DNA of 40,261 bases from Fidelibacterota bacterium (GTDB lineage: Bacteria; Fidelibacterota; UBA8477; JABMPR01): assembly GCA_018650795.1 (NCBI GenBank), contig JABIFG010000058.1, forward strand, positions 73,497 to 113,757, read 5' to 3'. Shown here piece by piece: positions 6,144 through 35,501 of this stretch. A program made the position numbers and the translations under genes. The notes under the pieces are model-generated. The model did not search any database. It was not told the DNA's origin and saw only the letters and a list, made by a program, of their open reading frames with translations. Positions within the stretch are counted from its first letter, which is position 1; every line of letters starts with the position of its first letter.

Positions 6144-7907
6144 CTATCGTTTCTTTAAGATTTCGACATAATAGGCTGAGGTAACTTCACCACTCTTCTC
6201 AAATAGGAGTGCTTCCAGTTCGAGGGGTCCTTTAGCCAGCTTCGCAAAGAATCGAACCTGTTTATCTCTGGGATTGACACTCTGTTTCTGGAGTATTCCA
6301 TCAATTATCAACTGGGCTTCAGAGTAACTCCTTTTTTGCGCTTTGTGTGGAGATTCCGAAAAGCTCAGGCCTGATTCTCTGGGCCATCGGCTCAGGGCAA
6401 ATTCATAGTTACCAGATTCTTCAACTTCCAGAAGCCACTTCCCATGATTACGATTGCCCTTAAGTACATGGCTTTGATTCCAGACAATCTTGCCAGGTTT
6501 GGCTCCCTCAACCGGATAAACATCCATACAGGTTATACGGGTTGGATTCTCTTTCGGAGAACCAATCACAATGCGATTGATGGGTAAGAAGCCTTCCTCT
6601 ACCGACTGGTACCAGGCCTGATAATCCGACTGGAGTTGTTCAACAACCTGGGGATGACTGGGTGCCAGGTCCTGTTTCTGTCCCGGATCTTTTTCAATAT
6701 CGTATAATTCCTCACCTTTATCAACCAGACGCCACTGCTCAGTCATGATGGCAGCCGAAGCATACATCTGTGAACGTTTCTTGACCTTGGTCTCAGTAAC
6801 CAGAGTCCGGTTCGGCCAGGTTGTCTGGTTACCTTTCAATAGTGGTAGCAGGCTTGATCCATCAAGCGGGGATTTCGAATCCTGGTTCAAGCCACAGGCT
6901 TCTTGCAAGGTTGGCAATAGATCGATATGTGCGGATAATTCATCGATATCCATACCACGATTGATCCCTCCAGCGGGCCAATGGATAAAGCATGGAACCC
7001 TATGTCCACCGTCATAGGTCGATCCCTTTTTGCCGCGCATCCCACCATTGTGGAGTTTGTATTTGTCCTGCTTGTCACAGGCTGATCCATTATCTGTCAT
7101 GAATATCAATATGGTATTATCATCAAGATTGTTTTTCTTAAGAAAAGTTCTGAGACGACCCACATTGGTGTCCACATTGCTGGTCATGGCATAGAATTTC
7201 TGAACAGGTTCTGGCAGATCTTTGTACATCTCCAGATATTCATCAGGTGCCCCGATTGGAGCATGCACGGCTGTGGTTGCCAGATAACAGAAGAAGGGCT
7301 TCTTGCCTGAATCTTTAATGAATTCCATGGTGGCGTCGAATTGAACATCAGTGCAGAAACCTTTTGATGGATTCCATTTGCTACCATTCCAGTAATGCAA
7401 ATCAAAGATGTCATTGCCCCAGTAATCAGGAACTTGCCCCGGACTGCCGCCACCTATTCGGAAAACCTCATCAAAGCCTCTGTCTTCAGGACGATAGGGA
7501 TAATTATCACCGAGATGCCACTTCCCCACCATTTGAGTGCTATAACCATTAGCTTTGAATATCTGAGGCATGAGGGTTTCATCACGGTTGAGAATCTCTC
7601 TCCCACCTACGGTGTGCCAGATACCCACATGACTTGAATATTTGCCGGATAAAATGGCTGCTCTCGATGGTGAACACACAGAATTGACATGAAAATCATT
7701 CAAGCGGCTGGATTCTGAATACATTTGATCCAGAAAAGGGGTCTTGATAACAGTATTTCCGGTACAGCCCAGTTCACCATAACCCTGATCGTCGGTAAGA
7801 ATGAGAATTACATTTGGTTTACGAGCCGCTGCATTCAATAGTGAAGGCATGACTGCCATGGCCATCAGACCACCTGATAATTTCAGAAATTCCCTACGCT
7901 GCATCAT
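6144..7907 (-). CDS. Exported arylsulfatase-type sulfatase with extra C-terminal beta domain
   Basis: A 587-residue sulfatase. It has a Tat-type signal (QRREFLKLSGG), KPNVILILTDDQGYGELG, the formylglycine motif CSPSR (Cys78), VGKWHLGD, IFMTDNGSACD and MRGKKGSTYDGGHRVP, all typical of arylsulfatase A-like enzymes. After about residue 470 there is a further domain of about 115 residues (GKWLLEVEESGNYEFALSRWPRE) found in many planctomycete- and Bacteroidetes-type arylsulfatases; it is probably a beta-sandwich of unproven role. The gene starts 7 bases after the stop of the preceding sulfatase (7915-9471), so the two are surely co-transcribed. AAGGAT lies just before the tandem ATG ATG; either ATG may serve. 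Confidence 0.93.
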   Translation of the reverse strand: MMQRREFLKLSGGLMAMAVMPSLLNAAARKPNVILILTDDQGYGELGCTGNTVIKTPFLDQMYSESSRLNDFHVNSVCSPSRAAILSGKYSSHVGIWHTVGGREILNRDETLMPQIFKANGYSTQMVGKWHLGDNYPYRPEDRGFDEVFRIGGGSPGQVPDYWGNDIFDLHYWNGSKWNPSKGFCTDVQFDATMEFIKDSGKKPFFCYLATTAVHAPIGAPDEYLEMYKDLPEPVQKFYAMTSNVDTNVGRLRTFLKKNNLDDNTILIFMTDNGSACDKQDKYKLHNGGMRGKKGSTYDGGHRVPCFIHWPAGGINRGMDIDELSAHIDLLPTLQEACGLNQDSKSPLDGSSLLPLLKGNQTTWPNRTLVTETKVKKRSQMYASAAIMTEQWRLVDKGEELYDIEKDPGQKQDLAPSHPQVVEQLQSDYQAWYQSVEEGFLPINRIVIGSPKENPTRITCMDVYPVEGAKPGKIVWNQSHVLKGNRNHGKWLLEVEESGNYEFALSRWPRESGLSFSESPHKAQKRSYSEAQLIIDGILQKQSVNPRDKQVRFFAKLAKGPLELEALLFEKSGEVTSAYYVEILKKR

Positions 7908-7914
7908 GGGATCC

Positions 7915-9471
7915 TTAATAATTCTTCATCCAATCAATTTGGCGCCAGTCCTCTTCCCCATCATTTGACTGTGGACTACCTGCAGTACTTCGACCATTGG
8001 TTATATATTGTTTCATGAGACCAGCCAATTTATTGACAATTTCAGGATTTTGAACTGAGAACTCCTGGGTTTCAGTTTCATCGATTCTCATGTTGTAGAG
8101 TTGAATAGGCGGGGTCTTTACATCGGGATACTTATTGCCACCTGAACCATCATGGAGCAATAATTTCCAATCCCCCTGACGAATAGCGAAGAACCCTTTA
8201 GCTGAATGATGGACAACCGCCTCACGTATTGGTTGAGAATTGATCCCTTTCAGTGCAGGTAAGATACTTACTGAATCCTCACCAGCATTATCGGGAAGTT
8301 CCTGATCCGTAATTTCTGCACAGGTTGCCAGCATATCTGTTAAACAGATAAGTTCACTGGTTGAATGACCTGCCTGAATGGTTCCAGGCCACGTGGCGAA
8401 GAAAGGAATCCGATGACCCCCATCCCAGTTATCACGTTTACAACCACGGTATTGAGCTGAGCCATCATGACCAAACTCCTTGTGAATGGCATACATGATA
8501 CGTTCTGGACCGTTATCACTGGTAAAAATAATTAGAGTATTGTCTGCAATCCCTGTTTCTTGAACGGCCTTGACAACTTGACCTACCGCATGATCCGTCT
8601 CCATGACGAAATCGCCATATTCACCGGCCTCGCTTTTTCCCAGGAATTCTTTGTTGGGTGCTATGGGTTTATGAGGAGAATTTAAAGGCAAATACATGAA
8701 AAAGGGCTGTTCAGGCGATTTCTTTGTATGATCTTTTATATACTCAACTGCCTTATCCCTGAAACGAGGTAGTACATAATGTATATCCCAGCCTTCTACC
8801 ATCCAGCCTTCGCGTCCATTCAGTAATTGTTTAGCCTCGGGGGTTTTCTTTTTCACATAAATCGTCGGTTCTTCAACAACCCGTCGATTTTCAATAAACA
8901 CATGGGGAGGCATTCCCAGCGAACCAGAAATACCATAGTAATAATCAAATCCCAAATCCAGCGGGTTGTGTTGGATGTCCTGGTTGAAATCTACATTCTT
9001 GAGACCCAGCTTAGCCTCTTCACCATCCTTGGTTGGCCAATCCATTCCCAAGTGCCATTTGCCAATACATGCCGTTGCATATCCGGACTGCCTCAAAAGG
9101 GCTGGAACCGTTAGCCTATTTGTCGGGATCAGTGGTTTTGAATGCCCCTTTAACACGCCCCTTTTGAGTTTTGTACGCCAGGTATAGCGTCCGGCTAAAA
9201 CGCCATAGCGTGTGGGTGTACAAACACCTGAATTGGAGTGTGCATCCGTGAAATTTATGCCATTTGCTGCTAGTTGATCAATATGAGGCGTTTGAATCCT
9301 GGATTCGGGATTCAGACAACTCACATCTCCATATCCCAGGTCGTCCGCAAGGATGTAGATAATATTGGGATGTTTGCCTGACTTGAGTGGGACTTTTGGG
9401 CTGGGTGGTACACATGCAACCAGCCCCAGGGTTCCGATTCCAGCAACTTTTAGAAATTCACGGCGTTTCAT
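7915..9471 (-). CDS. Sulfatase, predicted Tat-exported lipoprotein
   Basis: A 518-residue arylsulfatase A/GALNS-like sulfatase. A Tat motif (KRREFLKVAG) runs into a lipobox LVAC with Cys20, so it is probably an exported, lipid-anchored enzyme. Key motifs are HPNIIYILADDLGYGD, the formylglycine site CTPTR (Cys84), the GRYTWRTKLKRGVL block, IGKWHLGMDW, IFTSDNGPE and WDGGHRIPFFATWPG. GAGGTGAT lies about 10 bases before the ATG. The next gene starts 7 bases downstream. The preceding intergenic region (9472-9626) holds a palindromic repeat. Related enzymes act on 4- or 6-sulfated galactose or GalNAc, but the substrate here is unknown. Confidence 0.93.
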   Translation of the reverse strand: MKRREFLKVAGIGTLGLVACVPPSPKVPLKSGKHPNIIYILADDLGYGDVSCLNPESRIQTPHIDQLAANGINFTDAHSNSGVCTPTRYGVLAGRYTWRTKLKRGVLKGHSKPLIPTNRLTVPALLRQSGYATACIGKWHLGMDWPTKDGEEAKLGLKNVDFNQDIQHNPLDLGFDYYYGISGSLGMPPHVFIENRRVVEEPTIYVKKKTPEAKQLLNGREGWMVEGWDIHYVLPRFRDKAVEYIKDHTKKSPEQPFFMYLPLNSPHKPIAPNKEFLGKSEAGEYGDFVMETDHAVGQVVKAVQETGIADNTLIIFTSDNGPERIMYAIHKEFGHDGSAQYRGCKRDNWDGGHRIPFFATWPGTIQAGHSTSELICLTDMLATCAEITDQELPDNAGEDSVSILPALKGINSQPIREAVVHHSAKGFFAIRQGDWKLLLHDGSGGNKYPDVKTPPIQLYNMRIDETETQEFSVQNPEIVNKLAGLMKQYITNGRSTAGSPQSNDGEEDWRQIDWMKNY

Positions 9472-10733: not shown

Positions 10734-12284
10734 CTATGATTTCTTTGTTTTCTTCTGGCGTTTTTTAATCTTTTTCTGCTTCTTATTTCCAGATTTTTTC
10801 TTCTTCTTTTGGTTAGGATCCCAGGGAATATTGGCCATATCCTGAAAACTACCAATGGGTGCATAGCCTGAGTTTTTGGGATAATCCAGACCGGAATGAC
10901 TTTTTTCGCAGGATTTTAGAAATTCCAGCGCATAGGCTCGCATTTTCTGAGCAGTCTCCGGTTTCTTATCGATAAGGTTTTTTTCTTCAGCCCGATCAGC
11001 AAAAATATCATAGAGTAAATCTCCAACGGGCTGATCTGTATCGAAATTTGTGTAATACTTATACTTGTCATCAATCAGAGCCAGACAGGGAGCAGTTAAC
11101 TTTTTGTGTCGGAATGGAATGGGTTTTTTGCGTTCATTTGTTTTTTGGGAAACAATATTTAAGACATTCTCGCCATCCACAGGTCTAGCATCAGGCATTT
11201 TTGCGCCCGTAGCCTCAAAAAGAGTAGGTAAAAAGTCCAGGGTTGACATAGGCGTTTTAATGGTCGATCCTGCTTCAACCTTACCCTTCCAATAGAGGAA
11301 TGCAGGAACACAGACACCACCGTTGAAGAGATAGCTTTTCTTTCCACGCATACCACCTGTTGACCCATAACCACCATTTCTAACATCGTGGGCGGGACCA
11401 TTATCAGAGCAAAACCAGAGGATGGTGTTATCCCACTGGTCTAATTCTTTAAGCTTTTTCTTGAGTCGTCCCACCTGATCATCCAGGGCTGTGATAGAAC
11501 CGTAGTATTTCACCTTGCCCTTGTCCAGTCCTTTTGCTTCATAGATTTTTGCATATTCGGGACCGGCCTCCAATGGACCATGGGGTGTATGGGACCAGAT
11601 GACAGAGAAAAATGGTTTTTGCTCTTTAACTGCCTCTTCGATAAAAGGGATGGCTCGATCCATAATAATGCGTGAATCATCTCCGGTTAACCGTTCGCTC
11701 ACTCTTTTGCCGTCTTCCCAATATGGATTATCCGTGGAGTCAATTTCACTCCCATCAGGTCCGTAGGGATTCCAGGTCTTGACCGAATGATGGGTCACAA
11801 AATATTTATCATATCCAAACCACTCGGGACGCGCAAGATGTTGGTCACTGCCTCCTCCCCCTTTACCCGTGTATTCGGGATGGGGAGATCCGAGGTGCCA
11901 CTTGCCAAAATGACCTGTTTGGTAGCCCACATCTTTTAGGCCTTGTGGTAATGTGTATTCCTGACGTGGTAACCGGCCGCTATTGGCCTGCCAGATTCCG
12001 TATCGGAAATAATGACGCCCTGAAAGGCATGTTCCGCGTGTGGGTGAGCAAACGGGTCCACCAGAGAAAAAGTGATATAGATTTGCTCCCTCGCTACAGA
12101 TACCATCCAGATTGGGGGTTGAGATTTCAGTATTCCCGTTGAAGCCAACATCACCCCAACCCTGATCGTCGGTCATCATCAGAATGATGTTTGGTTTTTT
12201 GGTCTTCTTTCCGAAGCTGAATGCTGGAATAGCCGAAGATGCTAATCCAACTGCAGTAAATTTAAGAAATTCCCGTCTATTCAT
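10734..12284 (-). CDS. Exported sulfatase with polylysine tail
   Basis: A 516-residue sulfatase. It has a Tat-type signal (NRREFLKFTAVG), KPNIILMMTDDQGWGDVG, the formylglycine site CSPTR (Cys79), GHFGKWHLG, LWFCSDNGPAHD and GMRGKKSYLFNGGVCVPAFLYW. The last 24 or so residues are almost all Lys/Arg/Gln (for example KKKKKSGNKKQKK), an unusual addition beyond the sulfatase fold that could bind anionic sulfated glycan. The closest relative in the window is 14106-15938 (shared GGPVCSPTR and GRHYFRYGIW-like blocks). AGAGG lies 9 bases before the ATG. It is followed after 9 bases by the GH18-like gene. Substrate is not readable from the sequence. Confidence 0.93.
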   Translation of the reverse strand: MNRREFLKFTAVGLASSAIPAFSFGKKTKKPNIILMMTDDQGWGDVGFNGNTEISTPNLDGICSEGANLYHFFSGGPVCSPTRGTCLSGRHYFRYGIWQANSGRLPRQEYTLPQGLKDVGYQTGHFGKWHLGSPHPEYTGKGGGGSDQHLARPEWFGYDKYFVTHHSVKTWNPYGPDGSEIDSTDNPYWEDGKRVSERLTGDDSRIIMDRAIPFIEEAVKEQKPFFSVIWSHTPHGPLEAGPEYAKIYEAKGLDKGKVKYYGSITALDDQVGRLKKKLKELDQWDNTILWFCSDNGPAHDVRNGGYGSTGGMRGKKSYLFNGGVCVPAFLYWKGKVEAGSTIKTPMSTLDFLPTLFEATGAKMPDARPVDGENVLNIVSQKTNERKKPIPFRHKKLTAPCLALIDDKYKYYTNFDTDQPVGDLLYDIFADRAEEKNLIDKKPETAQKMRAYALEFLKSCEKSHSGLDYPKNSGYAPIGSFQDMANIPWDPNQKKKKKSGNKKQKKIKKRQKKTKKS

Positions 12285-12347: not shown

Positions 12348-13940
12348 TCAGGATTTTTTCTGCTTATTCTTTTTCTTCTTCTTTTTGGGTTTTACTTTTC
12401 TAGCAGGTGCTTTCCATCGGCCTGGTAAATCTTTCTCGGTCAGATCGATAGCTTTCATCTCTTCGGCGAGTTGTTGCTCCAACTCTGTGAGAATTTTGGA
12501 ATATGATTTATCATTCAGAACACTTCTGAGTTCATTGGGATCATTGACCATATCAAATAGATCCTGACCAATGACTGATCCATCTTTTCCCATATATTTT
12601 AATAACTTATGCTGCTTGGTCCGAATCCCATAATGACGGGGCGTACCAGATGAATAGAAAGCATAGAAGGTAGCGGACCGTTGATGTGCTTTAGGATCCT
12701 CTCTAAGATTCTTCCTGAAGCTAAAGCCTTGCATATCAGCGGGGATTTCCGCTCCGGCGTAGTCAATCATGGTCTCTGGAAAATCAACGTTATTAACGAT
12801 GTCATCAAGCACAATACCTGCTTGAATTTCCTTCGGATATCTGGCGATAAAAGGCATACGCATCCCTTCATCCAGCCCTAGACGTTTGTCATAAAAGCCG
12901 TGCTCGCCTACGTACATCCCCTGATCTGAGGTGTAAATGATCAGCGTGTCATCCAGAATACCTTCATGTTCAAGGTATTCAATTAACCGCAGCACATTAT
13001 CATCAATCCCTTTGACACAGCGCAGGTAATCCTTTACGTATTTCTGATAGGTTGCCTTTTTAATTTCGCTGTCAGACATGCCAGAGACGTCCAGGTTTCC
13101 AGTGGGCCAATCTGCCACCTCACCTTTTTTATTCAAGCCCTGCATTCTGGTGGATAGGCTACCACTACCATCCGTTGAAAATATTTTTGATTTTTTTATA
13201 CCAATTCCGCCTTCGAATCGATTGCTATAGTCATCATGCAAGGTGGGTGGTTCAGGAATATCAATATCGGCATACAATTTTTCATAACGGGGAGCATACT
13301 GCCAGGGACCATGAGCTGCTTTGAAATGATGCATGAGAAAGAAGGGCTTTGTTTTGTCACGCTTTTCCAGCCATTCCAGCGAGATATTTGTATAAACATC
13401 AGAACTGTGACCTTCTTCATTCCGCTTTCCATCAGGGGTTGACATGGATGGATTGATATAGCGTCCCTGGGAAGTTCGGGTTAATGAATAGTAATCCAGA
13501 CCGTGCATATTGTCACCATGAACGTGCCACTTCCCGACTGCAGCTGTTTGATAACCTGCGTTTTTCATGACGACGGGCAAGGTATTCCAACCCGATGTAT
13601 TCATATCTTCTCGCAGGGTATAGACACCTGATTTGTGGCTGTACTTCCCGGAAATAATTGTCGCTCTGGAGGGAGCACATAACGAGTTGGTACAGAAGCA
13701 ATTCGTGAGACGAGCACCTTCCGCAGCCAGCTTGTCAATGGTTGGAGTATCTACGTATTCCTTGATCCAACTCTTATATGAACCAACGAAATTGGCATCA
13801 TGATCATCTGCCATGATGTATAGAATATTGGGTCTCGCACCCCCAGGTTTTTTGTTTTTACTCAGGGCAAATATGGTGGGAGGAATGAGCAGACTTGCCG
13901 AGCCGATACCCACACTTCTAAGGAACTCACGTCTTTTCAC
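12348..13940 (-). CDS. Exported sulfatase with polylysine tail, first gene after operator B
   Basis: A 530-residue sulfatase starting with GTG at 13938-13940 (AGGGA just upstream). It has a Tat-type signal (KRREFLRSVGIG), RPNILYIMADDHDAN, the formylglycine site CAPSR (Cys88), GKWHVHGDN, YTSDQGMYVGEHGFYDKR and MRMPFIARYP. It belongs with the sulfatases at 2842 and 33888 by its SDQGM-GEH-DKR block. The C-terminus is Lys-rich (KPKKKKKKNKQKKS), like that of the neighbour at 10734 although the two sulfatases are of different subtypes. Site B of the putative operator lies 37 bases upstream, so this gene probably opens a long transcript running to the fucosidase and beyond. Confidence 0.93.
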   Translation of the reverse strand: MKRREFLRSVGIGSASLLIPPTIFALSKNKKPGGARPNILYIMADDHDANFVGSYKSWIKEYVDTPTIDKLAAEGARLTNCFCTNSLCAPSRATIISGKYSHKSGVYTLREDMNTSGWNTLPVVMKNAGYQTAAVGKWHVHGDNMHGLDYYSLTRTSQGRYINPSMSTPDGKRNEEGHSSDVYTNISLEWLEKRDKTKPFFLMHHFKAAHGPWQYAPRYEKLYADIDIPEPPTLHDDYSNRFEGGIGIKKSKIFSTDGSGSLSTRMQGLNKKGEVADWPTGNLDVSGMSDSEIKKATYQKYVKDYLRCVKGIDDNVLRLIEYLEHEGILDDTLIIYTSDQGMYVGEHGFYDKRLGLDEGMRMPFIARYPKEIQAGIVLDDIVNNVDFPETMIDYAGAEIPADMQGFSFRKNLREDPKAHQRSATFYAFYSSGTPRHYGIRTKQHKLLKYMGKDGSVIGQDLFDMVNDPNELRSVLNDKSYSKILTELEQQLAEEMKAIDLTEKDLPGRWKAPARKVKPKKKKKKNKQKKS

Positions 13941-14105: not shown

Positions 14106-15938
14106 TCATTTGATGTGCATACATTTGATGACTTCAATTTGGTTTGCCCCACTCTGAAGTTTGATGAAATATGTTCCTGATGGCAGATTCCCTGGAGTCC
14201 ATTGGATCAAATACTCTCCCCCGGGAAGCTCACCATCAACTAACTGCTCCACCCGTTTCCCCTGAAGATTATATACGGAGAGTTTTACAACAGATTGATA
14301 AGGGATGGTGTACTTGATCACAGTTCCATTGTTAAATGGATTCGGGTAATTTTCCTCAAGCATAAATCCGCCTGGCTTTGGATCGCGACTATAGATGGAA
14401 ACTGTCAGACTATCACAGGGGCTATATCCTTGCCATTGCCCCAGAGGACGCCAAGATCCAGTGGGACTGTAATCGTAATCCCCTCCATTATAGCTATTCT
14501 CAAAGGAAGTCATAAAGTCCTGGCAATGTTGACGAAGAGAATCGGCCAGCATCTGATTGCTTTCTAGAATATTGGTTTCCTCCCCACGGTCTTCATCCAG
14601 GTTGATCAACATATCTTCAACGGCACACTCTGATAAATTGGTCAAAAACTTATAGCGTGTTCCTGCAACAGTTGCCAGGGTGGCAATAGTTGGAGAATCT
14701 GCCATTTTGTTGATTTTCTGATAAAACCTGAATGGCACTGGTGTGGGGCGTTCCAGCATATTTCCTTCCAGAAGTGGCATCAGGCTGATGCCATCAATGG
14801 GACGATCATCGGGCATACTCTGTTCAAAGAAATCCATTATGGTCGGGAAATAATCAAGCGTACTACAGACGACATCGGTGCTGGGATATCCCAGATCATC
14901 AATCTCAGTTTCAAAAGCAGGATTATCTGTAAAATCAGGCCAATGCAGGAAGGCTGGCACACCAACACCTCCATTAAAGAGACTTCGCTTTCGGCCTCTC
15001 AATTCCCCAGTACTTCCATCCGTACCATTTTCAGGACCATTATCGCTACAAAACCACCATGATGTGTTCCCAAGTTCTCCAAGGTTCTCCAACTCACCCT
15101 TTAATCTACCGACTTGTTCATCCATGGCAGTAATACAGCCATAATACTTTTGCTCGCTCTCGCTATAATCTGAATAGATAGCGCGATGTTCGGGACTCGC
15201 ATCAATAGTTTTATGAGGTGCATGAAACCAGATCACAGCCAGAAAGGGTTGTCCATTCGCATTAGCTTGCTGCACAAAAGGGATGACCCGATCCATCATT
15301 ATTCGTGAGTCATCTCCAGTGATATTGTCCAAAACTCGCTCACCATTGTGCCAGTATGGGTTGTCACTGGTTGCCGCTCTTCCCCCGTTGGGACCATAAG
15401 GATCATAAAGCGCTACTGAATAAGCTGTGACAAAGTATTCATCATAACCGAACCAGTCGACATAGGCATGGTTGCTGGAATTTTGACCTGTATAGCCTTC
15501 TACAGGTGCGCCCAGATGCCATTTGCCAAAGTGTCCAGTGTTATAACCAATACCGTGTAGGACTTCCGGGATGGTGACTTCTTGCTGTGGTAATCGTCCG
15601 TCATTGGCTGACCAGATGCCGTAGCGATAATAATGGCGACCGGTCAGGCAGGTTGCCCGTGTAGGTGAGCAGACCGGTCCTCCAGAATAAAAATTTGATA
15701 GTTTGACGCCATCCTGGCACAATTGATCCAGATGAGGCGTTTGAATGATTGAATTTCCAGTGAAACCACAATCACCATAACCCATATCATCAGCCATCAT
15801 AAGGATGACATTGGGTGTCCCATCGCGTCTGGAGGCTGCCTTCATTAGAGGATTGGAAAGCGTTAGGGCTGCCATTCCAAGACCAAATGTTTTCAGGAAT
15901 GTACGTCTACTAAGGTTGTGGTTGTCTGTAGGTCTCAA
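14106..15938 (-). CDS. Sulfatase with Tat signal and T9SS sorting domain
   Basis: A 610-residue sulfatase. The N-terminus has a strong twin-arginine motif (SRRTFLK, residues 10-16), then TPNVILMMADDMGYGD, the formylglycine site CSPTR (Cys90), GHFGKWHLG, WWFCSDNGPENG and an LRGRKRSLFNGGVGVPAFLHW block. From about residue 525 it carries a T9SS C-terminal domain: FMLEENYPNPFNNGTVIKY, then VYNLQGKRVEQLVDG and a LPSGTYFIKLQSG ending. It should be secreted through the outer membrane or anchored on the surface. The start is TTG at 15936-15938, 13 bases after the upstream stop; it is needed to include the RR motif. It is paralogous to 10734-12284, which lacks the sorting domain. Confidence 0.92.
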   Translation of the reverse strand: MRPTDNHNLSRRTFLKTFGLGMAALTLSNPLMKAASRRDGTPNVILMMADDMGYGDCGFTGNSIIQTPHLDQLCQDGVKLSNFYSGGPVCSPTRATCLTGRHYYRYGIWSANDGRLPQQEVTIPEVLHGIGYNTGHFGKWHLGAPVEGYTGQNSSNHAYVDWFGYDEYFVTAYSVALYDPYGPNGGRAATSDNPYWHNGERVLDNITGDDSRIMMDRVIPFVQQANANGQPFLAVIWFHAPHKTIDASPEHRAIYSDYSESEQKYYGCITAMDEQVGRLKGELENLGELGNTSWWFCSDNGPENGTDGSTGELRGRKRSLFNGGVGVPAFLHWPDFTDNPAFETEIDDLGYPSTDVVCSTLDYFPTIMDFFEQSMPDDRPIDGISLMPLLEGNMLERPTPVPFRFYQKINKMADSPTIATLATVAGTRYKFLTNLSECAVEDMLINLDEDRGEETNILESNQMLADSLRQHCQDFMTSFENSYNGGDYDYSPTGSWRPLGQWQGYSPCDSLTVSIYSRDPKPGGFMLEENYPNPFNNGTVIKYTIPYQSVVKLSVYNLQGKRVEQLVDGELPGGEYLIQWTPGNLPSGTYFIKLQSGANQIEVIKCMHIK

Positions 15939-15951
15939 GAAATCAAGCTTT

Positions 15952-17739
15952 CTATTTAATTAAAATGCACTGCTTTGACATTGAGCTTGCCCCTGAGGTT
16001 AAGGTGTAGGTATAAATACCACTGGGAAGTCCGCTTCCCTTAAACTGAGCGTTGTGATGACCTGCAGATAGACGTTTATCGACCAGTGTTGAGATCAGCC
16101 TACCCTTGACATCATAAACCTCAAGTTTCACATCAGCAGATTTCCCAAGCTCAAATCGAATTTCTGTATCCGGATTGAAGGGATTGGGAAAATTCTGGTA
16201 AAGTTTGAAATTTTCTGGTTTTTGAGACTCATCCACGACATTTACCTCAGGAATTGGTCCATAAGTGGGGATGGCATCTACCGCTGGGAAGGAAGCCCAT
16301 ACTGTCAGCAATTCATTTAGTGCTGCTACAATGGTTTCATCTGTGCTGTCAATCAGGTTGACTGTCTCTCGGGGATCGGCAAAGAGGTCATAAAACTGAG
16401 TGGCAGAAGCAACCCCATCCTCACTGTTCTCGATCCAGAGCTTATACTGTTTATTCCGGATAGCCCTTTGCTTGTGATCAAATTCATTGACGGCCTGATA
16501 GTCTGGGACACCTTCCATTGGGGGGTCGCGTAGAATGTTGACAGTTCCGCCACCACTACCTACTCCAAGAATCCAATCCCGGGTTCCATCTTCAGTATTA
16601 CCCAGAATCACATCGGCTATTGAATGACCGTCCAGTACAAGTCCATCAGGTATGGTTGCCTCACCCAGGTCAGCAAATGTCGGCAGCATATCAGTAAAAT
16701 CTGTGAGGGTATCTGTGACGACACCGGCTGGTACGAGACCTGAACAATTCACTATGAAGGGCGCATTTACACCTGCTTCAGAGATTTTTGTCTTACCGCC
16801 CTGGACATCATCCCCGTCAATATTACCTGTATAACGCTTAGCGGTCCCATTATCTGTGGTCCAGATTATGATGGTGTTGTCACGTATACCCAAAGCATCC
16901 AGGCTATCAGTAAGTCTTCCCAGTAAGTGATCTGTATAGCGAATCATGGCCTTCACCATAGGCAATTTTCCATCAATTTCTTCTACCAGGTCTGGTTCTA
17001 GTGGGGTTGCAGTCACTGGATTATGAATGAGACACATGGGGAAATAGAGCATCATGGGGTGATCGACATTTTCTTCCATGAAATTGATGAGAAAATCGGT
17101 ATAGATGTCAGGACCAAATTGTCCCTCATAAGTCATACTTCCTTCTGTGGTGTGGATATATGGGTTCCAGTAGCGTTCAATCGCTACTTCGTTTCCACTT
17201 TCTTTGCCAGTCCATAGACAATAATCATCGAAGCCGTGCTCCAACATCACTTCTGGCTCCAGACGGAAGTCATTTATCTGCCATTTTCCGGCAACTGCCG
17301 TTTTGTAACCAGCGGATTGTAAAATGGTGGCAAAACTGGGATGAACTTCAGGATCAAATCGAATCTTTAACTCACCTTCAGGAAATTTAGTTGTACCCGG
17401 AACATCCCAATGATGGACCCAACCGGTTCTCCAGGGGTATTGTCCGGTTAAGAGCGTGATACGTGCAGGTGTGCATTGAGGCATGGAGTAGGCATTTGTG
17501 AAGCGCATTCCACCAGAAGCCAGTGCTTCAATGTTAGGCAGACCCATATCATCATGCTCAGCGCCACAGGTGGTCAGCCACTCTTTTCCAAGGTCATCGA
17601 TCATGATGAATATGATATTGGGTTGCTCGTCAAGTCGGCGATGGGTAGACCCAGATATGGATTTTATAAGTGACCCTGGCAGAATACCTGCAGCAGTGGT
17701 GCTGATTGCTGCTTTTTTAAGAAATTCACGTCGAAGCAT
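15952..17739 (-). CDS. Sulfatase with Tat signal and T9SS sorting domain
   Basis: A 595-residue sulfatase. It has a Tat-type signal (LRREFLKKAA), QPNIIFIMIDDLGKEW, the formylglycine site CTPAR (Cys89), TGQYPWRTGWVHHWDVPG, AVAGKWQINDFR (Gln in place of the usual His of GKWH) and IIWTTDNGTAKR. The C-terminal 80 residues are a T9SS sorting domain (FKLYQNFPNPFNPDTEIRF, then VYDVKGRLISTLVD and GLPSGIYTYTL). The closest relative in the window is 32390-33835, which shares the WRTGW-HHWDVP and GKWQVNDFR blocks but lacks the tail. AGGGA lies just before the ATG. It follows the regulator gene by 119 bases, in which I see nothing distinct. Confidence 0.92.
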   Translation of the reverse strand: MLRREFLKKAAISTTAAGILPGSLIKSISGSTHRRLDEQPNIIFIMIDDLGKEWLTTCGAEHDDMGLPNIEALASGGMRFTNAYSMPQCTPARITLLTGQYPWRTGWVHHWDVPGTTKFPEGELKIRFDPEVHPSFATILQSAGYKTAVAGKWQINDFRLEPEVMLEHGFDDYCLWTGKESGNEVAIERYWNPYIHTTEGSMTYEGQFGPDIYTDFLINFMEENVDHPMMLYFPMCLIHNPVTATPLEPDLVEEIDGKLPMVKAMIRYTDHLLGRLTDSLDALGIRDNTIIIWTTDNGTAKRYTGNIDGDDVQGGKTKISEAGVNAPFIVNCSGLVPAGVVTDTLTDFTDMLPTFADLGEATIPDGLVLDGHSIADVILGNTEDGTRDWILGVGSGGGTVNILRDPPMEGVPDYQAVNEFDHKQRAIRNKQYKLWIENSEDGVASATQFYDLFADPRETVNLIDSTDETIVAALNELLTVWASFPAVDAIPTYGPIPEVNVVDESQKPENFKLYQNFPNPFNPDTEIRFELGKSADVKLEVYDVKGRLISTLVDKRLSAGHHNAQFKGSGLPSGIYTYTLTSGASSMSKQCILIK

Positions 17740-17858: not shown

Positions 17859-18956
17859 CTAGTTGTTGCAGCAAGACTTCCTGACAATCAGCTTCGGTTC
17901 CAATAGTTTATGCATAGAGGGCGCTTCGCCACTTATCTTTTTAAGTAGACTTTCAACGGCAATTTGTCCTATCAGCTCTGTTGGCTGATGAATGGTGGTC
18001 AGAGGTACTGAAGCTGTTCTACCATTTGCAATATCATCGAATCCCACAATTGCGACATCTTTTGGAACGTTAATTCCAGACTCGCCTAATGCCTGAATGA
18101 ACCCGAGTGCGGAGAGGTCATTGTAGATAAACATAGCTTTGGGTCGATCTTTTAATTCGCAGAATTGCTTGCCAACCAGGTAGCCTGATTTCATATCATC
18201 ACGCTTCCCATCAACGGTAATTTGCAGCAAATTCTTCTGATCAACAGGTACATCATAGTCGGTCATGGCTTTGAGAAAACCCCGTTTCCGAGCTTCGCCA
18301 ACCAGATTGCCTTCTTCCCCATTCACATAACCTATATCAGCATATCCATTCTTTATCAGATGTTCGGTGGCCATGAAGCCACCCAGTTCCTGATCAGTCC
18401 CCACAAAATTGATGCTGGGATCTTCAGTATATGAAACCATGACAAAGGGGAAACGTTCAGCCTCGAGTTGTTTGATAAGTGAGTCTGTATAATGGCTGTG
18501 GAATAGGGATCCAAGAATTAATCCACTGACACCCATATCAATAAAATACCGGATTTTGCGTTCTTCATTATCATGACGGTTGTCTGATGAATAGAGCATC
18601 AAATTACTGTCATTTTTTGACAAATTTCTTTCAACACTTGATACGATGCTCTGGTAAAAGGGGTTATCCAGATCCTTAAGAACATAGGCAATGGTCAGGT
18701 GCTTTGAATAATCGATCTTTTGAGGACGCTGGGCAACATAAGTTCCCTTTCCAGCCCTGGCGTAAAGAACACCTTCACTGATTAAATCAGAAAGAGCTCG
18801 TTTTATTGTAATCAAACTCACATCATAGCGTTTGACCAACTCGCTCTGTGTTTCAAGCTTATCCCCAACTTTCAATTTGCCACTGTTTATCTGATTGACG
18901 ATTTCTTCCCCAACCTGCTTGTAAAATGGTTTTGGATTATGTTGATCGATACCCAT
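17859..18956 (-). CDS. GntR-type regulator with LacI-like sugar-binding domain
   Basis: A 365-residue cytosolic transcription factor. Residues 10-75 are a GntR winged helix: FYKQVGEEIVNQINSGKLKVG, SELVKRYDVSLITIKRALSDL and EGVLYARAGKGTYVA. From about residue 88 a LacI/periplasmic-binding-protein-like effector domain follows (LTIAYVLKDLDNPFYQSIV, GFLKAMTDY, VAIVGFDDIANG, TTIHQPTELIGQIAVESLL). This is the AraR-like arrangement, in which a sugar normally relieves repression. A 17-bp operator-like site (C) lies 51 bases upstream, suggesting autoregulation, and four related sites occur before other transcripts here. Its effector is probably a breakdown product of the glycan, which is inference. 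AGGGG precedes the ATG. Confidence 0.93.
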   Translation of the reverse strand: MGIDQHNPKPFYKQVGEEIVNQINSGKLKVGDKLETQSELVKRYDVSLITIKRALSDLISEGVLYARAGKGTYVAQRPQKIDYSKHLTIAYVLKDLDNPFYQSIVSSVERNLSKNDSNLMLYSSDNRHDNEERKIRYFIDMGVSGLILGSLFHSHYTDSLIKQLEAERFPFVMVSYTEDPSINFVGTDQELGGFMATEHLIKNGYADIGYVNGEEGNLVGEARKRGFLKAMTDYDVPVDQKNLLQITVDGKRDDMKSGYLVGKQFCELKDRPKAMFIYNDLSALGFIQALGESGINVPKDVAIVGFDDIANGRTASVPLTTIHQPTELIGQIAVESLLKKISGEAPSMHKLLEPKLIVRKSCCNN

Positions 18957-19228: not shown

Positions 19229-21283
19229 TTAATCAATCTTGACTGGTTGTGCTTTTGTAGGTTCCTGCAGGTGTAACTGTGACTGTTTAGCTTTCCAATC
19301 TTCAGCCAATTCCTTAAGCCGCACATCTGAATGTTCAAAGAAGGCAATATAGGATTCACAAAAATGGCTTAAGCCATTATCCTCAGGGTCTCGAAGTCTA
19401 TCTTTCGTGCATCCACCATAACATTGACGCTGCCATTTACACTTTTGGCACTTCTCAGGAAGATCGCTTTTCAGTTCCCCAAACTCCTTCTGCTTTTCAG
19501 AATTCAACATCACCAGGATATCATCATCATACAGGTTGCCCAATTTCCAAGTGGGTTCTACAAAGAAATCACAGGAATACACATCTCCATTATGCTCGAC
19601 GACGACATAATTCCCACACTCCTTGAGTAATGTGCATTCAGGGGCCTCAAGACCCACATAGCTATGAAACACAGAATCAAAGTGTCGGATGGACGTGGTT
19701 GCAATCCCATCTTCGAAATCATTCTGCCATAAGTCAAAGAGTTTGATCAGGAAATCCCCATAAGCTTTCTCTCCTACTGAATAAGCAGCGGATTTCTCAG
19801 GATTATCAGGGTCTGTCTCCACCAACGGGATGAACTGCATATATTCAAATCCCAATGATTTGTGGAACTGGTATATCTCTTCCGGGAATTTCACTGAGTA
19901 TTCATTCACAACGCTGAGGACGTTGACCTCAACACCGGCATCCATCAACATTCTGGTATTATCAACGACTTGTTGCCAGCTCGGTTTACCATTTACATGG
20001 GTTCGATACTTGTCGTGGATATGCTCTGGTCCATCGATGGATATACCCACCAGAAAGTTATTTTCTTTGAGAAAATTTGCCCAATCCTCATCTAGCAATA
20101 AACCATTGGTCTGCAAACCATTACCAACTGAGCGTCCTGATCCGTACCTTTTTTGCAACTTGACAGCCTGTTGGAAAAAAGGCAACCCCATGAGAGTGGG
20201 CTCTCCCCCCTGCCAGCCAAAGGAGACATGACCTGCAGTTTGCTGAAGTGTCTGCCGGATAAAGATGTCCAAAGTCTCAAGCGACATGCGATGTTTTTTT
20301 GTCTCGGTGAACAGGTCAGCCTTTTCCAGATAAAAACAATAGTCACAGTCCAGATTGCAATCAGGACCTGAAGGTTTAACCAGAACACTGGATAGACCCT
20401 TTTTAAATTTGATTTCATCCGGGAAATAATTTATCCGGGCTGTTTCTTTCACCCCATCAACATATTTCTCTACTTCAACATTCTGGGCATCTTCGGTCAA
20501 TTTTTCAATGATCTGTGATTTCACTTCATCAAATTCAATTTTCCGAGGTTCTTTTTTTTCAAATACTTTCGCAATATGGAAGCCAAAAGGTGACGGGAAT
20601 ACTTGACTCACTTCACCTGCTTCCATTTTGAAAACGACATCCTCAAATTCCTGAACCATTTGCCCCCGTGGAAAAACACCCAGGTCGCCAGAATTATCTG
20701 CGCAATCGGTCTGTTGCTCAGCCAATTCTTCATAGGTGGTACCAGATTGAATCTTCTCCCATATCTCCTGAATCTCAGTCTGGGCTTCTTTTTCAGTACG
20801 ATATCCTTCTATATGTTTGACGATATGACCTGCATGCACCATCTCAGGCAGCATGAATTGTTCAGGATTGCTTTGATAAAAAGCCTTGGCATCCGTTTCA
20901 CTTACTTGATTAGCCTTTGCGTGAAGTTCAGACATCAAATGCTCAACTTTATGCTGTTGCTCTATCTCAAGTAGGATATTTTCATCATCCTGATGTGTGA
21001 GACCGGTTTCTTTATAAAATTTTTCTTCTCCTCCGCGTTCTTCTTTGAGCTTAAGAAAAGCCTGGTCGAGTGTTTCAGGATTAATACTGTGTGAATCAGC
21101 ATGAGCCGATTGTCTGAGCAGCACACTTTCTATTACATTTTCGCGTGCCCATTCAGCTAGCTGCTTTTCCTGTTCTGCGCCGCTCTGCTCGCTAAAAACA
21201 GATTGAAAATGAGGCTGCAGTCTCTGAATTTCATCCTGGACCATTTTTTCCTGGATAAGCTCACCATTAACTATGAGGACCAT
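19229..21283 (-). CDS. Parvulin (PpiC)-anaerobic sulfatase maturase (anSME) fusion
   Basis: A 684-residue cytosolic fusion without signal peptide. Residues 1-140 resemble the chaperone part of SurA/NifM-type PPIases (starting VNGELIQEKMVQDEI). Residues 147-243 are a parvulin domain (DNSGDLGVFPRGQMVQEFEDVVF, PSPFGFHIAKV). Residues 296-684 are a radical-SAM/SPASM maturase: C309-x3-C313-x2-C316 binds the SAM cluster, WQGGEPTL and GISIDGP follow, and eight cysteines (550, 556, 571, 612, 615, 621, 625, 642) match known anSME auxiliary-cluster spacing, with Asp572 after Cys571 as the candidate base. anSME oxidises the sulfatase Cys to formylglycine before export, so it probably serves the ten Cys-type sulfatases here. 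AAGGAAT precedes the ATG. A PPIase fused to anSME is not an arrangement I know. Confidence 0.93.
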   Translation of the reverse strand: MVLIVNGELIQEKMVQDEIQRLQPHFQSVFSEQSGAEQEKQLAEWARENVIESVLLRQSAHADSHSINPETLDQAFLKLKEERGGEEKFYKETGLTHQDDENILLEIEQQHKVEHLMSELHAKANQVSETDAKAFYQSNPEQFMLPEMVHAGHIVKHIEGYRTEKEAQTEIQEIWEKIQSGTTYEELAEQQTDCADNSGDLGVFPRGQMVQEFEDVVFKMEAGEVSQVFPSPFGFHIAKVFEKKEPRKIEFDEVKSQIIEKLTEDAQNVEVEKYVDGVKETARINYFPDEIKFKKGLSSVLVKPSGPDCNLDCDYCFYLEKADLFTETKKHRMSLETLDIFIRQTLQQTAGHVSFGWQGGEPTLMGLPFFQQAVKLQKRYGSGRSVGNGLQTNGLLLDEDWANFLKENNFLVGISIDGPEHIHDKYRTHVNGKPSWQQVVDNTRMLMDAGVEVNVLSVVNEYSVKFPEEIYQFHKSLGFEYMQFIPLVETDPDNPEKSAAYSVGEKAYGDFLIKLFDLWQNDFEDGIATTSIRHFDSVFHSYVGLEAPECTLLKECGNYVVVEHNGDVYSCDFFVEPTWKLGNLYDDDILVMLNSEKQKEFGELKSDLPEKCQKCKWQRQCYGGCTKDRLRDPEDNGLSHFCESYIAFFEHSDVRLKELAEDWKAKQSQLHLQEPTKAQPVKID

Positions 21284-26469: not shown

Positions 26470-26502
26470 TGTGCGACTCCTCATATGAATTCATAAGCTG
26501 GA

Positions 26503-29856: not shown

Positions 29857-29888
29857 GCTAAATTTCCCTTTCAATGGTTTTCAATATT

Positions 29889-32389: not shown

Positions 32390-33835
32390 TTATTTATACT
32401 TGTCGCCCACCTGTAAATCCCAGGTCTGAGCCGGAGTTGGCTCATATTTTGGCCGGGCGTCCTTGTCTGGAAAACCTACTATAGCAGTTTCAAATTTTTT
32501 CCTGGCTGCGATGATAGCAGGCAGACTGCTATCGATTAGATTGGTGGTCTCTCCCGGATCGGCTGTCAGGTCAAAGAGCTTGACCCCACTCCCTTCCGAC
32601 ACCCACATTTTATATTGTTTGTCTCTGATAACTCTATCAGCATAATCCTTTTGAGGGATAACACCCTGGTCAGTGAGTTTTGCAACACCACCACCCATGG
32701 CCATGATCCACTCACGATCCGAATCTTCAGCTTTACCAGTCAGCAGTCGAGCTATGGAGTGACCATCAATGGTTTCGCCCTCAGGTAGACTGGCACCTCC
32801 GAATTCAGCAAAGGTGGGCAGCATATCAGTGAAGTCAGTCAGGGCATCTGTAACGGTTCCTTTGGGAATACGTGTGGGACAGCTCGCAACAAAGGGAACG
32901 TGCATACCGTTCTCACCCAGTTCACCTTTCCCGCCACGAACTTTACGTCCGTTCATGGTGGTTTTCATATTTCTTGCAGTCCCATTGTCAGTTGTGAATA
33001 TGATCACTGTTTTCTTTCGAAGCCCTAAATCATCAATGGATTTTACCAATCGACCGAGTTGATGGTCCACATGCTGTGCCATGCCCTTGAATTTTTCTTT
33101 ATTGCTCTCGGCTTCAGGTGAGTTAGGAGTATTTACTAGAGGACCATGAGGATCTACCATGGGATAGTAAATCATCATAGGCTTATCCCGATTCTCAGAC
33201 ATAAAATTTATCAGAAAATCCGTGAATACATCCGGACCAAACTGTCCGGGATAGGTTTTGCTACCATCTCTGGTAAATAGATAAGGATCCCAATACCTTT
33301 CGGCACTTGGTTTGTTACCGGTTTCATAACCGGTCCACATACACCAGTCATCGAAACCATGGTTTGTAAGGGCATCAGGTTGAACTCGAAAATCATTCAC
33401 TTGCCACTTACCAGCCACTGCGGTGGTGTAGCCAGTAGATTGCATTACTTTGCCAAAGCTAGTATAGTGTTTCCAGTCAAAATGACAACCTGCTCCCCAG
33501 CGAGGGACATCCCAATGGTTGATCCAGCCTGTCCTCCACGGATATTGACCTGTCAGGAGTGAAGCTCGAGTAGGTGTACATTTGGGCATGGAGTAGGCAT
33601 TTGTAAAACGCATGCCTTCAGTAGCCAGTTTATCAATATTTGGTGTTATGATTTCTTCGGCGCCATAGCAACTTACCCATTCGGGTCCCATATCATCGGC
33701 CATGACAAACAGGATATTTGGCTTTTCAACTGTTTCAGTTTTTTTTGTATAACATGCTATTGGTAGCGTGGCGGCAGCGAGACCGATACCAACATTTTTC
33801 AGAAACTCTCTACGACTTTGATTCATTTTTTGCAC
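32390..33835 (-). CDS. Sulfatase, predicted Tat-exported lipoprotein
   Basis: A 481-residue sulfatase. It has a Tat-type motif (SRREFLKNVG), then PIAC with Cys28 as a likely lipidation site, KPNILFVMADDMGPEW, the formylglycine site CTPTR (Cys86), TGQYPWRTGWINHWDVP, AVAGKWQVNDFR and IIFTTDNGTARN. It is the close counterpart of 15952-17739, which shares the WRTGW-HWDVP and GKWQ-NDFR blocks, but it ends without a T9SS domain. One paralogue would be lipid-anchored and the other secreted by T9SS. I used GTG at 33833-33835, with GGGGA upstream; ATG at 33826 is an alternative that keeps the Tat motif. It lies 52 bases after the next sulfatase. Confidence 0.92.
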   Translation of the reverse strand: MQKMNQSRREFLKNVGIGLAAATLPIACYTKKTETVEKPNILFVMADDMGPEWVSCYGAEEIITPNIDKLATEGMRFTNAYSMPKCTPTRASLLTGQYPWRTGWINHWDVPRWGAGCHFDWKHYTSFGKVMQSTGYTTAVAGKWQVNDFRVQPDALTNHGFDDWCMWTGYETGNKPSAERYWDPYLFTRDGSKTYPGQFGPDVFTDFLINFMSENRDKPMMIYYPMVDPHGPLVNTPNSPEAESNKEKFKGMAQHVDHQLGRLVKSIDDLGLRKKTVIIFTTDNGTARNMKTTMNGRKVRGGKGELGENGMHVPFVASCPTRIPKGTVTDALTDFTDMLPTFAEFGGASLPEGETIDGHSIARLLTGKAEDSDREWIMAMGGGVAKLTDQGVIPQKDYADRVIRDKQYKMWVSEGSGVKLFDLTADPGETTNLIDSSLPAIIAARKKFETAIVGFPDKDARPKYEPTPAQTWDLQVGDKYK

Positions 33836-33887: not shown

Positions 33888-35501
33888 CTAGTCCCAATGA
33901 CTTTTCCTAACTGCCATAAGCTCAGGATACTTTTCATCCGTATCAGCATATTGCTGTTTAAGCTTTAACAATTCCGCTTTCAATTTGGGAATCACAGCCT
34001 GGTAAGTTGGATCCTTATACACGTTTTGTAATTCGTGTGGATCTTTTATCATATCGTACAATTCCCATCCAACTGGAGATGTTTCCTGCTTAGCGCCATT
34101 CGCGTCCAGTGGTAATCCATGGTAGAAGATGAGTTTGTGCTGTTTTGTTCGAATCCCATAATGCCCTGGTATGTCATGATGCGCACGATGCATCCAGTAA
34201 CGGTAATACATTGACTGACGCCAGTCATCGGGGGTTTTACCCTGCAAGTTTGATCGGATACTTTTTCCCTGTACTTCAGTCGGTACAGGAACTCCGGCAT
34301 AGTCCAGGAATGTGGGTGCAAAATCAATATTCAGTGAGATATCTTGATTTCTACTACCTCCCTCAATCTCTTTTGGATACCTGATTAAAAACGGCATCTG
34401 CAGAGATTCTTCAAACATCCAGCGTTTATCTATCAGATCATGTTCACCCAGCATCATACCTTGATCGGAGGTATAAATCACGATGGTGTTTTCGCTGAGA
34501 TTGTTTTCATCGAGATAATCCAGCATGCGACCTACATTTTCATCTACGGCAATGCAGCACCTCAAATAATCCTTTAGATATTTCTGATAGGCAGCTCTTG
34601 TGATCTCATCCTGAGTCAGCCCTTCAGTTTCAAGCATTCCCGTAGGCCATACTTTTTTTGGATCCGTCATACGTGCTACACGATTTCGGATGGGATTTTT
34701 ACTAGATAAGGTGGAGCCGTAATTCTGAGTAGCGATTGAGCGATGACTTTTATCTTCAAAAAGACTCGCTGGTTCTGGAATTGTAATGCCATCAAAAAGA
34801 TGTTCATGACGCTTGGCGTATTCCCAGCGTCCATGAGGGGCTTTGTGATGACACATCATGAAAAATGGCTGCTCCGTATCGCGATTCTCTAACCACTTTA
34901 GCGCTTCATCTGTAATCACATCTGTGACATAGCCGGGATATACCTCACCGCCAGCATTCCGTTTTTTCCAGGGTTTACCCTTCTCTTTTAGCAAGGGATC
35001 ATGATAGAGTCCTTGTCCTGGAAGTACGTTATAGTAATCAAATCCACTGGGTTCAGTATGCAGATGCCATTTCCCGATCATTGCTGTTTGATAGCCTGAA
35101 GATTGTAAGAGTTTAGCTACATTGGATCGATCCCGGTCAAAATCATCCTGAAGTGTGTTCACACCATTAATATGACTGTACTGACCGGTAAGAATTGCTG
35201 CTCTGCTAGGTGTACAGATTGAATTCGTACAAAAACAATTCTCCAGACGATTACCCTCTTGCGCCAATCGATCGATGTTTGGTGTCCTGGCATAATCAGC
35301 CAGTATACTGCCATAGCTACTAATGGCTTTTGCAGCGTGGTCATCAGACATAATGAACAGAATATTTGGACGTTTTGGAGCTAGCTTGAATATTTTTTCA
35401 AAGAATCCTGTTTGCACACATCCTGTCAGCGGCAACGTCATTGCCACAGCACCCATACTGGTCATCTTAAGAAATTTTCGACGATCTATATTTGAATGCA
35501 T
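33888..35501 (-). CDS. Sulfatase, predicted Tat-exported lipoprotein
   Basis: A 537-residue sulfatase. Its Tat-type motif (DRRKFLKMTS) is followed by LTGC with Cys28 as the probable lipid site, RPNILFIMSDDHAAKAI, the formylglycine site CTPSR (Cys96), IGKWHLH, YTSDQGMMLGEHDLIDKR and EESLQMPFLIRYP. The C-terminal YYRYWMHRAHHDIPGHYGIRTK block ties it to the sulfatase at 2842-4557. AAGGAG lies 6 bases before the ATG. It is divergent from the LVIVD gene at 35748, and the 246 bases between them carry two palindromes (35643 and 35696). It probably leads a transcript continuing through 32390 and manC. Confidence 0.93.
   Translation of the reverse strand: MHSNIDRRKFLKMTSMGAVAMTLPLTGCVQTGFFEKIFKLAPKRPNILFIMSDDHAAKAISSYGSILADYARTPNIDRLAQEGNRLENCFCTNSICTPSRAAILTGQYSHINGVNTLQDDFDRDRSNVAKLLQSSGYQTAMIGKWHLHTEPSGFDYYNVLPGQGLYHDPLLKEKGKPWKKRNAGGEVYPGYVTDVITDEALKWLENRDTEQPFFMMCHHKAPHGRWEYAKRHEHLFDGITIPEPASLFEDKSHRSIATQNYGSTLSSKNPIRNRVARMTDPKKVWPTGMLETEGLTQDEITRAAYQKYLKDYLRCCIAVDENVGRMLDYLDENNLSENTIVIYTSDQGMMLGEHDLIDKRWMFEESLQMPFLIRYPKEIEGGSRNQDISLNIDFAPTFLDYAGVPVPTEVQGKSIRSNLQGKTPDDWRQSMYYRYWMHRAHHDIPGHYGIRTKQHKLIFYHGLPLDANGAKQETSPVGWELYDMIKDPHELQNVYKDPTYQAVIPKLKAELLKLKQQYADTDEKYPELMAVRKSHWD

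Follow-up and report, generated by a model that had tools for sequence, protein, structure and literature searches.

A cytosolic SurA-like parvulin module fused to an anSME-type sulfatase maturase in Neomarinimicrobiota: a candidate self-chaperoning enzyme

Introduction

Sulfatase maturases of the anSME type act on the unfolded sulfatase chain. In the stretch of DNA analysed here (40,261 nt of contig JABIFG010000058.1 from a Fidelibacterota bacterium; hereafter the window), a preliminary description noted a gene in which a parvulin prolyl isomerase (PPIase) runs on into an anSME, and proposed that the built-in PPIase/holdase keeps the substrate unfolded or sets its Cys-x-Pro bond. The locus thus raises two questions: whether the two halves truly belong to one protein and, if so, what a parvulin could do for a sulfatase maturase.

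Results

One gene encodes both halves

The gene occupies the position originally given for it and lies on the minus strand as a single uninterrupted frame, with an ATG start and zero internal stops. Its parts are the following:

19229..21283, minus strand: fused gene, SurA-like chaperone/parvulin plus anSME, 684 aa (Pfam and NCBIfam profiles)
20414..21283, minus strand: N-terminal SurA-like module, residues 1-290 (AlphaFold2 and Foldseek)
20549..20848, minus strand: parvulin PPIase domain, residues 146-245 (Pfam and active-site positions)
19229..20398, minus strand: anSME part, residues 296-684 plus stop (TIGR03942, 438 bits; 4k36 and 4k37 matches)
20336..20359, minus strand: radical SAM CX3CX2C, residues 309-316 (motif and alignment with 4k36)
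19358..19636, minus strand: SPASM cysteines C550-C642 including C571-D572 (PF13186 and 4k36 alignment)

The open frame around the gene is 693 aa long and leaves at most nine codons upstream of the ATG, so that a signal peptide cannot fit; given also the N-terminus MVLIVNGE, the protein should be cytosolic. An export signal of the SurA/PrsA type is absent.

A search for fused proteins and their taxa, as advised in the preliminary description, found fused genes in 8 of the 245 Neomarinimicrobiota genomes surveyed (families f1, f9, f12 and f13), with one open frame in each and identities down to 46%; the chance that a frameshift or assembly error joined two genes is therefore negligible. One relative (JADHVL010000001.1) is 85% identical and syntenic with the window. 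The survey used a match threshold of E≤1e-35, reached in 35 genomes, and scored the best three to four candidates per genome. In 27 of these 35 genomes the anSME stands without the module, three of the matches being partial and the one in G232 being cut by a contig end, so that its state is undecided. Sulfatase matches (the best nine at most per genome) were more numerous in the 8 fusion genomes than in the 27 others, with medians of 7.5 vs. 2 (p 0.005).

The C-terminal half has the features of a complete anSME

The maturase half matched the TIGR03942 equivalog with 438 bits (cut-off 349) over residues 300-661 and model positions 2-362 of 363, in agreement with the complete anSME noted earlier at residues 296-684. 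Pfam placed radical SAM at 306-456 and SPASM at 557-616 (PF13186), and the best solved relatives were the anSME chains 4k36 (E 6.8e-78) and 4k37 (E 2.9e-77). The features that we take to define anSMEs, namely CX3CX2C, eight SPASM cysteines and an Asp after the third of these, are all present, and the eleven cluster cysteines already recognized at the outset lie at positions 309, 313, 316, 550, 556, 571, 612, 615, 621, 625 and 642. Read on the alignment, C571 and D572 fall opposite C276 and D277 of the 4k36 chain, where D277 serves as the catalytic base. Judged by its profile and by the nine C-x-P-x-R sulfatases beside it in the window, the protein is a putative formylglycine-forming enzyme. 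It thus resembles known anSMEs (TIGR03942; solved structures 4k36-4k39) in its radical SAM and SPASM domains, eleven cysteines, Asp and sulfatase neighbors, but differs from them in the 290-residue chaperone/PPIase placed in front of the maturase.

A further difference concerns the C-terminus, as 4 of the 8 fusions end in a SEC-C motif (L022, L009, L011 and L012), which the window protein lacks. By pattern, 52 of 114 non-identical anSME frames, fusions included, carry SEC-C. The SEC-C tail of SecA binds SecB and the ribosome; by analogy, the tail on anSMEs may make contact with either of them. The same genome encodes two other anSMEs, both unfused, and within the 11 and 19.5 kb around them no neighbor matched any window sulfatase.

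The N-terminal half is predicted to fold as a SurA-like parvulin chaperone

Pfam assigned residues 146-244 to the parvulin family PF13616 (E 3.6e-24, 86 bits, cut-off 22.5), with PF00639 also above its gathering cut-off (E 1.9e-19, 70.8 bits vs. 21.7), while SurA_N_3 matched weakly, at 18.7 bits and under the cut-off of 27.2. When residues 1-290 were modelled alone with AlphaFold2 (mean pLDDT 91.5), the predicted layout was a helical arm (about 1-145), the parvulin domain (146-245) and a return helix (251-281). Foldseek matched this module to SurA (E 1.2e-12), to SurA without its second isomerase domain (2pv3, E 2.6e-12), to PrsA (E 2.9e-11) and also to PEB4, which together with the missing signal peptide fits the cytosolic chaperone/PpiC module first described. 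The parvulin domain alone reached target-normalised TM-scores of up to 0.81 against PrsA and Pin1; for full-length SurA/PrsA-type matches the query-normalised values were modest (0.28-0.47), as would be expected if the parvulin domain stood at different angles to the arm. A model of the whole fusion had a mean pLDDT of 69.8, with only four anSME rows in its alignment.

SurA and PrsA are exported parvulin chaperones. The fusion shares with them the arm, inserted parvulin domain and return helix, but it lacks a signal peptide and continues into an enzyme. Among named cytosolic parvulin families NifM (TIGR02933) comes closest, likewise a helical N-terminal part plus parvulin that serves one maturation pathway; the fusion, however, scored only 73 bits against its cut-off of 168, and among the window ORFs scanned there is no nif gene, sulfatases adjoining the fusion instead. 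NifM is reported to have a PpiC domain, its isomerase domain to predominate in NifH maturation, and its N-terminal region possibly to assist through NifH binding (PMC12691677).

As to catalysis, H153, C194, L201, M209, F213, S231 and H236 of the window protein occupy what we take to be the Pin1-type active-site positions. All seven are thus intact here, and the active site looks usable for prolyl isomerization; the parvulin domain does not look to be of the defective kind that, together with a lack of effect on maturation, the preliminary description had named as counting against its proposal. With Ser or Thr at 231 counted as kept, the seven positions are preserved in 6 of the 8 fusions and in all 5 parvulins from the Tat operons described below. 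Of the other two fusions, that of G233 has Gln in place of H153, and that of G005 (L010/L166) lacks residues 159-246 in frame, although the maturase is retained along with the arm and the return helix; with one MAG showing it, the loss of the isomerase core could be an assembly error. Position 194 is Cys in 7/7 fusions that keep the core, 5/5 operon parvulins and 26/40 other relatives vs. 1/28 outgroup parvulins. A trigger-factor C-terminal domain (PF05698, 25.8 bits, cut-off 22.7) was detected over the N-module in one of the eight fusions, that of G043, and a Cpn10-like gene lies directly upstream of the same fusion (L165:11046-11417).

Sulfatases surround the fused gene

The scan of window ORFs returned ten PF00884 proteins. 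The preliminary description had counted ten Cys-type sulfatases, all with C-x-P-x-R; this holds for nine, each of which also has an RR (Tat-type) signal, but not for the tenth (29889-31112), a protein in which C/S-x-P/A-x-R is absent throughout and no signal is visible. The nine sulfatases and the regulator gene next to the fusion are:

2842..4557, minus strand: Cys-sulfatase, CSPSR, RR signal
6144..7907, minus strand: Cys-sulfatase, CSPSR, RR signal
7915..9471, minus strand: Cys-sulfatase, CTPTR, RR signal
10734..12284, minus strand: Cys-sulfatase, CSPTR, RR signal
12348..13940, minus strand: Cys-sulfatase, CAPSR, RR signal KRREFLR (seen by eye, missed by pattern)
14106..15938, minus strand: Cys-sulfatase, CSPTR, RR signal
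15952..17739, minus strand: Cys-sulfatase, CTPAR, RR signal
32390..33835, minus strand: Cys-sulfatase, CTPTR, RR signal
33888..35501, minus strand: Cys-sulfatase, CTPSR, RR signal
17859..18956, minus strand: GntR/LacI-type regulator adjoining the fusion

In L022 (G012) and L164 (G244), too, the fusion has a close relative of this regulator as its neighbor. Further window genes encode an alpha-L-fucosidase, a GH18 protein and an acetylesterase-like protein. The tenth PF00884 protein belongs to a group of genes near one another, which is possibly a cytosolic sulfur-handling set:

25300-26484: ATP sulfurylase
26503-27741 and 27741-28922: two ASST-like (arylsulfotransferase-like) proteins
29014-29874: PAPS-reductase domain protein
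29889-31112: sulfatase-fold protein without signal or C-x-P-x-R

Both halves are conserved, but the module is not universal

Between the fusions of G000 and G012, dN/dS was 0.14 for the arm, 0.046 for the PPIase part and 0.025 for the maturase, values that are rough since dS (0.8-2.0) is near saturation, and that indicate purifying selection on both halves. In a first tree the eight N-modules formed one group (support 0.934); after two sequences were added, three unfused ones fell inside the fused group (0.897). Similarly, three standalone anSMEs nest within the fused anSME clade (0.915; 0.62 in a second tree). A single origin of the fusion was thus not upheld in either the N-module or the anSME trees. 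These standalone enzymes, together with the unfused majority of the surveyed genomes, show that the module is dispensable for maturation in general.

Outside the phylum, separate parvulin and anSME genes lie side by side

Standalone relatives of the module, with 34-44% identity, were found in six MAGs titled Planctomycetota, Phycisphaerales, Sedimentisphaerales, Lentisphaerota, Verrucomicrobia and Kiritimatiellia, and the N-module tree places the fused modules among such relatives. In G1104 (from the class of an Ignavibacteriales MAG), genes for a parvulin, an anSME and an RR-signal sulfatase follow one another on one strand; a fusion hinted at by the open frame was rejected there, as a stop separates two genes. 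In G246, also outside Neomarinimicrobiota, parvulin and anSME are divergent neighbors. Four genomes (G881, G793, G669 and G861) from the phylum of the Kiritimatiellia MAG, which we take to be Verrucomicrobiota in GTDB, have a row of anSME, parvulin, a TatA-like gene and TatC. The Tat genes were assigned by Pfam in L170 alone (TatC 187 bits; TatA 20.3 bits, just below the cut-off of 21) and by similarity to the L170 proteins in the other three operons (TatA E≤9e-40, TatC E≤3e-171). In G761 this row recurs with a 125-aa anSME piece, and in each of the five genomes the single TatC match is the one in the row. An Rce1-like gene also stands in the row at these loci (L170-L173 and L186). The four operon parvulins cluster with their G761 counterpart in one clade (support 1.0), so this adjacency counts as one event; in all, adjacency outside Neomarinimicrobiota was seen in three lineages. 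The four operon genomes gave 89, 99, at least 124 and at least 124 sulfatase matches.

For two Kiritimatiellales strains a single anSME each has been reported, and the words 'isomerase', 'Tat' and 'twin-arginine' were searched for in the main text of that paper without a hit (PMC6388578). At four loci of the Planctomycetota set (L205, L206, L211 and L212) a standalone parvulin gene adjoins a sulfatase gene, an adjacency that may be due to chance.

Parvulin and anSME co-occur across genomes

Co-occurrence was counted by hand in four groups totaling 965 genomes, with parvulins taken at E≤1e-40. Both genes were present in 25 of 30 parvulin genomes vs. 9.5 expected (CMH p 5e-10, kinship uncorrected). 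Three of the 25 (G246, G248 and G253) had led to the choice of groups; without them the count is 22 of 27. By group, the parvulin was found in 2 of 294 genomes (anSME in 29, including both of these), in 3 of 40 (all 3 with anSME; anSME in 13), in 8 of 343 in the Planctomycetota set (6 with anSME; anSME in 63) and in 17 of 288 in the phylum of G253 (14 with anSME; anSME in about 116). The last figure has a range of 115-117, as G829 and G876 lie outside the rows counted, and in the 294-, 343- and 288-genome groups the best three to four candidates per genome were scored.

The two genes are adjacent in 6 of the 25 genomes with both, four of the six being one clade. In the Planctomycetota set none of the 6 genomes with both showed adjacency, the closest pair being about 16 kb apart (G623), and in the phylum of G253 the parvulin lies away from the anSME in 10 of 14. 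Five of the 30 parvulin genomes gave no anSME match; three of these are among the 17 of the G253 phylum, one of them being G761 with its 125-aa piece.

Export signals of the sulfatases differ between fusion and operon genomes

Among the best-scoring sulfatase loci, 15 of 15 readable N-termini were RR-type in four fusion genomes (G000, G043, G052 and G058), with 2 edge-cut loci and 2 lacking a found domain start left out; in the four operon genomes 28 of 30 were Sec-like, with 7 edge-cut loci and 1 lacking a found domain start left out. One of the loci left out in the fusion genomes, L238, has RREFLK by eye. Given the RR-type signals in the fusion genomes, a client of the fusion should reach its folded state in the cytoplasm and only then be exported by Tat, so that the time for maturation would be short. 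The TatA-TatC neighbors had prompted the idea of a general Tat link, but the Sec-like signals of the operon genomes weaken it and point to an unfolded client, rather than Tat itself, as the common need.

Discussion

The protein is a real, conserved and selected fusion of two known families, and gene neighborhoods outside the phylum back it. The eight fusions, the adjacency in three lineages, the co-occurrence and the purifying selection on both halves give strong support to the view that this parvulin family and anSME are functionally linked. That much of the PPIase/holdase proposal stands; sulfatase binding, the holding step, an effect on formylglycine yield, Tat export and the relative weight of holding and isomerization are what we infer beyond it.

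We give a probability of about 0.6 to the reading that the fusion is a self-chaperoning sulfatase maturase, whose tethered cytosolic holdase/PPIase keeps precursors unfolded for the anSME. The N-module would capture the newly made sulfatase precursor and hold the region around C-x-P-x-R unfolded and soluble; the segment would then enter the radical SAM/SPASM site, where its Cys would be oxidized to formylglycine before folding. The matured sulfatase would fold in the cytosol and, in this organism, leave by Tat. Isomerization may be a second and sometimes dispensable function beside holding. In SurA, chaperone activity is reported to reside mainly in the N- and C-terminal core, with isomerase domains that are not fully expendable (PMC2556385).

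It is unlikely that isomerization is instead the essential task, with the parvulin bringing the Cys within reach of the radical site by setting the Cys-x-Pro bond or a different one. The mostly intact active sites, the Cys at position 194, the stronger conservation of the PPIase part than of the arm and the Pro in 9/9 window sulfatase motifs speak for it, and the reported predominance of the isomerase domain in NifM keeps it alive (PMC12691677). Yet the G005 fusion has lost its isomerase core in frame, G233 has Gln for H153, parvulin-free anSMEs are common, and C-x-A-x-R sulfatases occur as well, with CSASR in one sulfatase of G052, a genome carrying the fusion, and CAASR in at least three operon genomes. 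Setting of the Cys-x-Pro bond is only compatible with the data at hand.

We consider it quite unlikely that the parvulin acts in cis, helping the maturase to fold or to acquire [4Fe-4S] clusters in the way that NifM assists NifH. The client of NifM, the nearest named cytosolic family, is indeed an Fe-S protein; however, a sulfatase gene follows the pair in G1104, Tat genes follow it in the operon genomes, and unfused anSMEs of the same clade manage without the module. Still more improbable is the tolerated, accidental joining of a general cytosolic chaperone with no special link to maturation: the many relatives encoded away from any anSME, and those in genomes of the G253 phylum with no anSME match, would suit it, but adjacency is seen in three lineages besides the fusion and the two genes co-occur well above expectation.

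Full-text search, with most subscription journals outside its coverage, found no paper on the fusion or on a parvulin-anSME link, and literature searches found no dedicated chaperone for the anSME step on the unfolded chain. Beyond the self-chaperoning maturase itself, we tentatively suggest, at rather less than even odds, that cytosolic Cys-type SurA-like parvulins are an undescribed family of dedicated sulfatase-maturation chaperones present in several phyla. In bacteria rich in sulfatases, sulfatase activation would then be a chaperoned, possibly co-translational handover, passing from nascent chain to holdase/PPIase, radical oxidation, folding and export. The fusion and the separate neighboring genes name a candidate chaperone for the anSME step, for which simple tests are possible; if the reading is true, a higher formylglycine yield may be within reach for sulfatases and aldehyde tags in anaerobic or heterologous hosts.
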